From contig NZ_JAGEMK010000003.1 of the NCBI RefSeq assembly GCF_017565425.1, positions 310,001-374,000 of the forward strand: 64,000 nt of DNA, in the 5' to 3' direction. This stretch comes from Actinotalea soli (GTDB taxonomy: Bacteria; Actinomycetota; Actinomycetes; Actinomycetales; Cellulomonadaceae). Positions 34,353 to 36,053 of this stretch are shown here, piece after piece (position 1 is the stretch's first letter; each line of letters opens with the position of its first letter). The translations under genes and the position numbers were made by a program. The notes beneath the pieces are model-generated. The model ran no database searches and was not told the DNA's origin. It saw only the letters and a program-made list of their open reading frames with translations.

Positions 34353-34399
34353 TCCTGGCGCGCGCCCGAGGACCGTGCCCACCGGCCGGCCCTCGCCCA

Positions 34400-34440
34400 G
34401 CGACGGGGTGGCTGACCGGCCGGTCGGACCACCCCGTCGC
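34400..34440. terminator. 12-bp stem with palindromic loop before cysteine leader
   Basis: GCGACGGGGTGG and CCACCCCGTCGC pair perfectly. The 17-base loop contains the perfect palindrome GACCGGCCGGTC (34414-34425). It lies 47 bases after the DUF885 stop and 6 bases before the next -10 box, so it may be a terminator, an operator or both. Confidence 0.6.
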
Positions 34441-34446
34441 AGGACG

Positions 34447-34452
34447 TAGGAT
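34447..34452 (+). promoter_or_regulatory. -10 box TAGGAT of leader peptide/symporter unit
   Basis: TAGGAT, nine bases, then the leader ATG 34462. The mRNA would begin at or within a few bases of the leader peptide start codon, as reported for mycobacterial cysteine leader ORFs. Confidence 0.58.
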
Positions 34453-34461
34453 GACTCCGCC

Positions 34462-34560
34462 ATGCGCAACCCCTGGAACCTCTCCGCACGCCTGCACGTC
34501 GATCTGCGACGTCAGGCGAGCGCGTCGTGTCCGGGTGCCCCGGCCGTCCGGCCCGCCTGA
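34462..34560 (+). CDS. Cysteine leader peptide (RxHVDL type)
   Basis: A 32-residue peptide with RLHVDLRRQASASC followed by a short Pro/Ala tail. This matches the actinobacterial leader-peptide pattern R-x-HVDL-R-x-x-S-A-x-C, in which a Cys codon follows the conserved block. In mycobacteria such leaderless ORFs sense charged tRNA-Cys: slow translation at Cys codons exposes the ribosome site of the downstream sulfur gene. Here the Cys is residue 23, and the stop is 68 bases before a DAACS symporter ATG. The gap contains the symporter ribosome site (GGAAGG), which could be masked by upstream G/C-rich pairing. The peptide itself is probably non-functional. Confidence 0.85.
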   Translation: MRNPWNLSARLHVDLRRQASASCPGAPAVRPA

Positions 34561-34628
34561 GCGACCCCCGCTCGCGAGCCCGCCCGACGGCCTTCCCGCA
34601 CCCTCGACACGACCCCGGAAGGTCCACC

Positions 34629-36053
34629 ATGGCTTCGCCCCGCTCTCGTCTGCGCCTGCCCTCCTTCGGCGTGCAGATCCTCGTCGCCCTCGTCCTGGGC
34701 ATCGGCCTCGGGCTGCTCGCCCGAGCGATCCAGGTCCCTGACGCGCCCGACAACGGGCTGACCGTCACGCTCCAGACCATCGGCAGCTCGTTCGTCCAGC
34801 TCCTGCGTGCCCTGGTCCCACCGCTGATCCTCACCGCGATCATCGCCTCGATCGCCAACCTCGGGAAGGTCACCAACGCGGCACGGCTCGCGGGCCGCAC
34901 GCTGCTCTGGTTCGGGATCACCGCCCTGGCCTCGGTCGCGATCGGCATCACCCTGGGCCTGGTGCTGCGCCCCGGCCTGAGCACCACCCTGTCCCCCGAG
35001 TCGGCGGCGCCTCCCGCCCGCACCGGCTCCTGGCTCGACTTCATCACCGGCCTGCTGCCCGCGAACTTCCTCGGCCTGAGCGCGAGCACGACCCTCCAGA
35101 CCGGCGACGACGGCACGATCACCGGCGCCGGGACCGGGCTCACCTTCAACGCCCTCCAGCTCGTCGTGATCGCCCTCGTCGTGGGCTTCGCGGCCCTCAA
35201 GGTCGGTCCGGCCGCCGAGCCCTTCCTGTCCTTCAACCGCTCGGTCCTCGCCGTGGTGCAGAAGGTCCTGTGGTGGCTGATCCGCCTGGCCCCTCTCGGC
35301 ACCCTCGGCCTCCTGGGCAACGCCGTGGCCACCTACGGCTGGGAGTCCCTCGCCCCGCTGGGGACCTTCACCCTCGCGATGTACCTGGGCCTGGCCCTCG
35401 TGCTGTTCGTCCTCTACCCCGTGGTCCTCACGGCGAACGGCCTGTCCCCGATCCGCTGGTTCGCCGGTGCCTGGCCGGCCATCCAGCTGGGCTTCGTCTC
35501 GCGCTCCTCCCTCGGCACGCTGCCGGTGACCGAGCGGGTCACGGTGCGGAACCTGGGAGTGCCCCGCGAGTACGCCTCCTTCGCGGTGCCCTTCGGAGCG
35601 ACCACCAAGATGGACGGCTGCGCCGCGGTCTACCCGGCCCTCGCGGCGATCTTCGTGGCCCAGTTCTTCGGCCTCGAGCTCACGGTCTGGGACTACCTGC
35701 TCATCGCCTTCGTCTCGGTGGCCGGATCGGCCGCGACCGCCGGGCTCACCGGCGCGCTGGTCATGCTCACGCTGACGCTGTCGACCCTGGGACTCCCGCT
35801 CGAGGGGGTCGGGCTGCTCCTCGCGATCGACCCGATCCTCGACATGGGGCGCACCGCGGTCAACGTCGCCGGGCAGACGCTGGTCCCGACGGTCGTGGCC
35901 AAGCGCGAGGGCATCCTCGACCAGGCCGCCTTCGCGGCGTCCAACGCCGCGGACCCGTTCGCCGAGGAGGACGATGCCGAGGTGCACCAGAGGACCGGGG
36001 ACGAGCCCCCGGCCGAGCACGAGACGACCGCCGAGGCGCAGACCGGCCGCTGA
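34629..36053 (+). CDS. DAACS-family dicarboxylate/amino acid symporter, probable L-cystine importer
   Basis: A 474-residue membrane transporter with eight or so TM segments and the two re-entrant loops of the GltPh fold. Substrate-loop motifs are SRSSLGTLPVTERV, VPFGATTKMDGCA (the family NMDGT-like site) and DPILDMGRTAVNVAGQT (the DxxRTxxNV motif). The family imports glutamate, aspartate, C4-dicarboxylates or, in the TcyP branch, L-cystine. The upstream cysteine leader makes cystine the best guess; this is context-based. ATG 34629 has GGAAGG upstream; earlier in-frame codons overlap the leader. The acidic tail (AEEDDAEVH) is cytoplasmic. Confidence 0.88.
   Translation: MASPRSRLRLPSFGVQILVALVLGIGLGLLARAIQVPDAPDNGLTVTLQTIGSSFVQLLRALVPPLILTAIIASIANLGKVTNAARLAGRTLLWFGITALASVAIGITLGLVLRPGLSTTLSPESAAPPARTGSWLDFITGLLPANFLGLSASTTLQTGDDGTITGAGTGLTFNALQLVVIALVVGFAALKVGPAAEPFLSFNRSVLAVVQKVLWWLIRLAPLGTLGLLGNAVATYGWESLAPLGTFTLAMYLGLALVLFVLYPVVLTANGLSPIRWFAGAWPAIQLGFVSRSSLGTLPVTERVTVRNLGVPREYASFAVPFGATTKMDGCAAVYPALAAIFVAQFFGLELTVWDYLLIAFVSVAGSAATAGLTGALVMLTLTLSTLGLPLEGVGLLLAIDPILDMGRTAVNVAGQTLVPTVVAKREGILDQAAFAASNAADPFAEEDDAEVHQRTGDEPPAEHETTAEAQTGR

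Follow-up and report, generated by a model that had tools for sequence, protein, structure and literature searches.

A cysteine-codon leader peptide recurs in front of a subfamily of DAACS importer genes in Actinotalea soli and other Actinobacteria

In a 64,000-nucleotide stretch of the Actinotalea soli genome (Cellulomonadaceae; contig NZ_JAGEMK010000003.1, positions 310,001 to 374,000; hereafter the window), a short open reading frame (ORF) with a conserved cysteine codon lies on the same strand just upstream of a gene for a symporter of the DAACS family (SDF, PF00375), and we found that such leaders are real and recurrent partners of one DAACS subfamily. The substrates of DAACS proteins are hard to assign from sequence; here, regulation by cysteine supply is likely and cystine is a plausible substrate. 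We regard it as nearly certain that the window ORF is a cis-regulatory leader and as highly probable that the signal it reads is the supply of cysteine, and our main explanation, which the comparative evidence makes probable, is that a cysteine-responsive leader-peptide attenuator controls the importer. Cysteine leaders as such are already known, and a search of the literature, with subscription papers mostly outside its coverage, found none before a DAACS gene.

The original prediction placed a 32-codon leader ORF 68 bases before the symporter gene, and this reading of the window was borne out: the ORF scores above the 27-bit cut-off of the NCBIfam profile NF042934 ('putative leader peptide'; Table 1), and 68 nucleotides (nt) separate its stop codon from the importer ATG (34629). 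The predicted signature, RxHVDLRxxSAxC, was right in type, although the actual motif, RLHVDLRRQASASC, is one residue longer; its Cys codon lies 10 codons ahead of the leader stop codon. When the whole genome (3.63 Mb, 32 contigs) was searched with NF042934, the window leader was the sole match above the cut-off (27.3 bits in that search), followed by one match of 26.5 bits on contig 11 and four weak ones at 12-16 bits, the window ORF and the contig 11 ORF being the two matches with E<1e-4. At a loose limit (E<=10), 10 of 14 control genomes also gave matches, none of the 14 above the cut-off. The transcript was further predicted to be leaderless, and a leaderless or nearly leaderless start is indeed plausible, because a -10-like hexamer stops 9 nt short of the leader ATG and no Shine-Dalgarno sequence was seen by eye ahead of that ATG in the window. 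Of the three close relatives whose alignment reaches this site, two (L162, L161) have TAGGAT or TACGGT in the corresponding position and L036 has CAGGTT, while the L136 stretch ends short of the site; a generic sigma-70 scan was negative.

A search of 150 genomes of the family yielded 95 SDF matches and 55 NF042934 matches (E<=0.005), and 42 of the 55 leader matches lie 98-435 nt upstream of a DAACS match on the same strand, measured from profile match to profile match. We inspected 94 of the 95 SDF loci, omitting one (G142:C3) that equals another match of its genome in score and frame length. The TTKMDGC signature of the window protein is present at 55 of these 94 loci, and the leader motif precedes the gene at 51 of the 55 and at no locus among the other 39. 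The window genome itself has a single SDF match by profile search of its contigs, and in the genus the gene is present in 5 of 19 genomes, each time with a leader ORF, one of which NF042934 missed. Beyond the family, all counts on named relatives refer to the best 80 of at least 586 confirmed, namely 54 from Actinomycetota and 26 from Alphaproteobacteria, a division that agrees with the tree. Here the leader was found at 36 of the 54 actinobacterial loci, in genera that include Cellulomonas, Cellulosimicrobium, Georgenia, Nocardiopsis, Nocardioides, Jiangella and Blastococcus, and at none of the 26 alphaproteobacterial loci. A first, stricter scan with a scoring table built on 14 peptides had placed 31 of the 54 above all decoys (highest decoy score 18.2); the motif was then broadened post hoc, after the translations had been read, which added five loci from Geodermatophilaceae (L183, L185, L191, L231 and L235), and in its broadened form it had no hits among 87 reverse strands, 39 other DAACS loci and 26 alphaproteobacterial loci.

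The remaining four TTKMDGC loci of the family (L052, L067, L119 and L121) carry ORFs with 3-6 terminal Cys codons (for example STCCLPCCCC), a feature found on none of their four reverse strands. The rule describing such polycysteine ORFs was formulated only after the four had been spotted by eye, and elsewhere it performs at chance level, with 3 of the 18 leaderless actinobacterial relatives (decoy 4) and 4 of the 26 alphaproteobacterial ones (decoy 2); one of the former (L186) has an ORF with three terminal TGT codons. As judged from these comparisons, leader and TTKMDGC gene form a recurrent, subfamily-specific pairing, which upholds the earlier claim that a Cys leader of the known actinobacterial type stands before the DAACS gene. 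With a cysteine leader at 55 of 55 subfamily loci of the family (51 single-Cys, 4 polycysteine), the pairing offers a testable substrate class for a large and so far unassigned group of at least 586 relatives.

The Cys codon of the leader shows a marked choice of synonym. Among 69 distinct leader cores, from which only identical 66-nt cores had been removed and which come from family and named-relative sets that share genomes, the last motif position is Cys in 64, every one encoded by TGT, and in the remaining five this codon is TGA (3), TAG (1) or TGG (1). By comparison, 93 of the 96 Cys codons in 33 gene-like window ORFs are TGC and 3 are TGT, and the DAACS ORFs of the leader loci use TGC 87 times and TGT never, most of those 87 codons representing, in our view, a single invariant Cys. 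The last motif Cys is also TGT in all nine of the non-DAACS leaders of the family that we inspected. One tRNA reads both Cys codons, UGU by wobble. Related loci are not independent, and a p-value for TGT versus TGC is to be taken as indicative; the TGT pattern covers many genera, and these counts support codon-level selection on the leader Cys codon. Constraint on the leader as a whole seems to be a mixture of peptide and nucleotide constraint, because Arg3 (68 of 69 cores, five codons), Asp7 (69 of 69, two codons) and Arg10 (63 of 69, four codons) are synonymously free, yet Ser13 is nearly always AGC (54 of 56).

The RNA between leader and importer is rich in C and poor in G. A simple rule set the DAACS start codons, and removal of 8 loci with a duplicate leader-to-start sequence reduced the 87 leader loci to 79. 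From leader stop to Shine-Dalgarno sequence, C is 0.52 and G 0.26, with more C than G in each of the 39 clusters (of 40) whose spacers were long enough, compared with C 0.36 and G 0.35 upstream and C 0.38 and G 0.33 within the leader, such that the shift appears at the leader stop codon. Over the last 45 nt ahead of the Shine-Dalgarno sequence, C exceeds G at 53 of the 55 leader loci whose spacers reach that length; the same segment has C 0.33 and G 0.30 in the 18 actinobacterial homologues that lack a leader (C above G in 10 of 18) and C 0.38 and G 0.35 in 14 other window genes (7 of 14). The 100 nt after all nine non-DAACS leaders, mostly running into the next gene, have C 0.45-0.56 and G 0.18-0.34. 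Stretches in which C exceeds G mark Rho loading; a Rho-dependent leader attenuator would also be expected to have unstructured RNA there, and the window RNA is strongly folded. No intrinsic terminator was found between leader and importer in the window, and a simple hairpin-plus-T criterion picked out terminator-like sites in only 2 of 79 spacers, which led us to reject a classical transcription attenuator. Comparison across loci thus establishes the leader, its DAACS pairing, the choice of UGU, the C-rich spacer and how rarely terminator-like sites occur, and the invariant UGU and C-rich spacer are simple marks by which to recognise cysteine attenuators in high-GC genomes.

Table 1. Features of the leader-importer region (positions in the window)
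Feature	Position	Strand	Basis
-10-like hexamer TAGGAT	34447..34452	+	read directly
Leader peptide ORF MRNPWNLSARLHVDLRRQASASCPGAPAVRPA, 32 codons + TGA	34462..34560	+	NF042934 28.4 bits, E 8.9e-7; kept before DAACS genes
Proposed regulatory Cys codon, TGT, codon 23	34528..34530	+	TGT in 64/64 distinct cores with Cys there
Predicted helix, GTCGTGTC over Cys codon (34524-34531) with GACACGAC before Shine-Dalgarno sequence (34606-34613)	34524..34613	+	RNA folding
Untranslated spacer, candidate Rho-loading stretch	34561..34628	+	C 0.56, G 0.24 (last 14 nt excluded)
Shine-Dalgarno sequence GGAAGG of importer gene, predicted to pair with leader codons (ACCUCUCCG)	34617..34622	+	RNA folding
DAACS/SDF symporter, 474 amino acids, TTKMDGC subfamily; proposed to import cystine or a similar source of cysteine	34629..36053	+	PF00375, pocket signature, trees

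In the mechanism that we favour, a ribosome would translate the leader while the mRNA is still being made. With ample Cys-tRNA, the slow UGU would be decoded and the ribosome would reach the nearby stop codon and be released; the C-rich, G-poor RNA would then lie bare, Rho would end transcription or the importer start would stay closed, and the importer would be scarce. When cysteine is scarce, the ribosome would stall on UGU beside the C-rich stretch and block or remodel it, and the importer would be produced, most likely taking up cystine or another cysteine-yielding compound. Stalling, the direction of control, the role of Rho and the substrate are the steps that we infer, and we see the chances as even that control is of the Rho type rather than purely translational.

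The window protein matches PF00375 with E 1.4e-95 (321 bits against a cut-off of 27.9). It also matches four NCBIfam models, all far below their cut-offs (best DctA, 166.7 of 513 bits, and GltP, 157.9 of 638), and a designation as GltP or DctA equivalog was accordingly rejected. In a comparison with four E. coli proteins (TcyP, GltP, DctA and SstT, with this one TcyP only and the B. subtilis TcyP outside the set), TcyP is closest at 31% identity, followed by GltP at 27%. The clearest mark is in the NMDGT loop, where the window protein and E. coli TcyP share a Cys together with an insertion of one residue (GCA..YP) that the other three lack, and the SRSS and DMGRTA.NV segments match TcyP as well, with near-matches in SstT (TRSS) and GltP (DMARTALNV). 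We narrowly favour cystine or a similar source of cysteine as the substrate, slightly less than we otherwise would, because two of the three supposed TcyP marks have near-equivalents in SstT or GltP. Residues that presumably correspond to the Na+ site are altered in the window protein (N to K and D to Q, GltPh numbering), and because of these changes there are hints of proton coupling. The window genome has no match to phosphoadenosine phosphosulfate/adenosine phosphosulfate (PAPS/APS) reductase (PF01507) at E<=0.001, and for that reason reduced sulfur from outside may be important to it. Such a match is present in 117 of the 150 family genomes and lacking in 14 of the 17 listed genus genomes; a link between the importer and loss of sulfate reduction was rejected, the reductase being missing in 4 of 5 listed genus genomes with a DAACS gene and in 10 of 12 others, with no association. 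The nearest named relative of the window protein, among the matches listed, is from Actinotalea sp. C106 (96% identity), and the 79 other relatives among the best 80 have 61-80% identity in the best segment, a high value for a transporter without an assigned function, and include Rhizobiales and Caulobacterales; 17 records are plasmid copies.

Several observations weigh against the preferred mechanism or the proposed substrate. The leader was not found in 18 of the 54 actinobacterial relatives, which include Micrococcaceae, Microbacteriaceae, Ruaniaceae and Beutenbergiaceae entries and two Cellulomonas species. Four Geodermatophilaceae leaders (L183, L185, L231 and L235, from Blastococcus, Klenkia and Modestobacter) end at a stop codon in place of the Cys and, read from the presumed start, contain no Cys at all, with the peptide body kept, and a fifth (L191) has Trp at that position and a Cys earlier. 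Such Cys-less leaders may have decayed, may be differently tuned or may have a peptide body with a role of its own, and they provide natural controls for distinguishing the sensing of codon supply from nascent-peptide arrest. The C bias is also seen at DAACS coding starts (C 0.44, G 0.28) and, to a small degree, upstream of the alphaproteobacterial genes (C 0.30, G 0.25; C above G in 20 of 26). As to the transporter, the TTKMDGC proteins form a clade of their own in the trees and are not grouped with TcyP, two genomes (G072 and G096) carry a TcyP-like gene alongside the TTKMDGC importer, and the ORFs flanking 19 relatives, whose translations were read with no family search made, gave no clue to the substrate. 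The assignment to L-cystine in the original prediction is thus plausible through the GCA..YP loop and is tempered by the separate subfamily and the TcyP-like paralogues. RNA folding, finally, is exceptional in some genera only: across genera, the median z of the leader RNA was -0.98 versus -0.39 for coding controls (40 clusters, p 0.12), pairing between leader and Shine-Dalgarno sequence was -10.53 in matched and -10.39 in permuted combinations (48 clusters, p 0.35), and the mean unpaired fraction of the Shine-Dalgarno sequence was 0.34 with the RNA free and 0.35 with a ribosome modelled on the Cys codon (24 loci from the 79).

These folding results bear most directly on the alternative that survives best, to which we give a real but minority chance, namely purely translational attenuation in which the leader RNA hides the importer's Shine-Dalgarno sequence, a stalled ribosome opens it and Rho plays no role. 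Precedent comes from M. smegmatis, in which several cysteine biosynthetic genes are under translation attenuation according to the accessible part of PMC13236596, which cites Canestrari 2020. In the window, the RNA of leader and spacer is far more stable than its shuffles (z -6.02, 0 of 200), with the Cys codon in a helix and the Shine-Dalgarno sequence paired with leader codons (Table 1), and unusual stability is shared within the Actinotalea group (z -5.66, -4.13 and -2.01 in close relatives, and -1.95 in L136). The Cys-codon helix, compared with spacer shuffles, gave p 0.020 in the window and 0.027, 0.113, 0.080 and 0.107 in four close relatives, and p<0.05 at 3 of 16 loci overall (L001, L161 and L044) and at 1 of 11 outside the Actinotalea group. 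Against a purely translational switch, however, the Shine-Dalgarno pairing is not conserved (companion pairing tests across genera gave p 0.24 for the Cys region and 0.64 for a control segment), the modelled stall frees no Shine-Dalgarno sequence on average and raises its unpairing by more than 0.2 in only 2 of 24 loci (L187 and L065), and the C-rich spacer would be superfluous. The switch in fold that the original prediction envisaged, set off by a ribosome at codon 23, was not supported in that form either, as no terminator-like site was found in the window and folding with and without a ribosome on that Cys codon left its Shine-Dalgarno sequence closed. The leader RNA fold is possibly a local elaboration and not the mechanism.

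Unlikely in our estimate is an arrest peptide, in which the nascent chain (R..VDL.R..S..C) would itself stall the ribosome, with cysteine or Cys-tRNA as a co-signal. The conservation of Arg3, Asp7 and Arg10 despite synonymous freedom is consistent with it, as is the peptide body retained by the Cys-less leaders, whereas a UGU fixed in 64 of 64 cores is unneeded for a pure peptide effect, and the four polycysteine loci use a different ending altogether. Because UGU is fixed at the codon level and Ser13 nearly so, nucleotide constraint appears to play a part. A bolder and similarly improbable proposal would merge this idea with our preferred attenuator: a cysteine-tuned arrest peptide whose conserved chain slows the ribosome, with one wobble-read UGU near the stop codon reporting cysteine through a Rho-type C-rich spacer, and with the TTKMDGC proteins as an unrecognised family of cysteine-source importers across Actinobacteria, the alphaproteobacterial members being under other control.

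Also doubtful is the alternative that the transporter carries glutamate, aspartate or C4-dicarboxylates and that its tie to cysteine status is indirect. DctA and GltP are its best NCBIfam profiles, though far below the cut-offs, the Arg of the last helix is conserved, the nearest solved structures are those of transporters for aspartate and glutamate, and a union of the subfamily with GltP/DctA is not rejected by the approximately unbiased (AU) test (p-AU 0.266), nor is a union with TcyP (p-AU 0.295), which is absent from the best tree. The 39 other family DAACS loci, several of them DctA-like at 44-48% identity, are nevertheless leaderless, and the GCA..YP loop resembles that of TcyP.

Upstream of the presumed leader promoter, between it and a DUF885 gene, we observed a strong inverted repeat (GCGACGGGGTGG / CCACCCCGTCGC) at 34394-34446, perhaps the terminator of the DUF885 gene; three Rfam matches in 34389-34451 (E 0.62-0.92), all to microRNA models and below gathering scores, were set aside as chance. 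Leaders of the same broad class also stand before other genes. At seven genus loci a second type (RVHVDL.RT...LC) precedes an ORF that, from its translation, encodes an isopenicillin-N-synthase-like 2-oxoglutarate-Fe(II) oxygenase (L003 1501-1554, on contig 11 of the window genome, and L008, L010, L012, L013, L014 and L023), and leaders of the NF042934 type in L009 and L078 precede ORFs whose translations indicate a thioredoxin-like protein and a secreted lipoprotein.

The window leader resembles the cis_reg_atten leaders of NF042934 in its motif, its score above the cut-off and its position as a short upstream ORF on the same strand. Leaders of this type usually precede sulfate or cysteine synthesis genes, whereas the window leader is tied to a DAACS importer subfamily. 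At the protein level, the importer belongs to the same Pfam family as E. coli YdjN/TcyP and B. subtilis TcyP and shares the GCA..YP loop with E. coli TcyP, but it falls in the separate TTKMDGC subfamily. E. coli ydjN has been proposed to be under CysB control (PMC4383340, as far as the accessible text goes), and the window importer would have a leader peptide instead. E. coli K-12 without ydjN and yecS is unable to use cystine as its only source of sulfur (PMC4383340).

Among regulatory systems, the closest likeness, taken from the accessible portions of the sources, is to the leaders of actinobacterial cys/cbs operons, which are likewise short ORFs with one or more Cys codons near the stop and have no conserved terminator; for these, Seliverstov 2005 (PMC1262725) suggested Rho and termed the prediction rather weak. 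Cysteine upstream ORFs are described in mycobacteria (Shell 2015, PMC4633059; PMC13236596; PMC9094748; PMC9031893), and the mycobacterial examples are leaderless. Unlike the cys/cbs leaders, as they appear in these portions, the leaders described here mostly have a single UGU rather than a run of Cys codons (four loci being polycysteine), keep a conserved peptide body and are paired with an importer gene. Leaders on importers have precedent, because S. lividans has one before the metNIQ methionine importer, as the accessible text of PMC8079986 relates. The mechanism that we favour is also akin to that of the E. coli toiL-topAI upstream ORF, where, in the accessible part of PMC12121999, a stall is proposed to alter the structure of the ribosome-binding site and thereby to bring about Rho termination; toiL-topAI answers ribosome-targeting drugs and not an amino acid, and is a precedent for the mechanism only.

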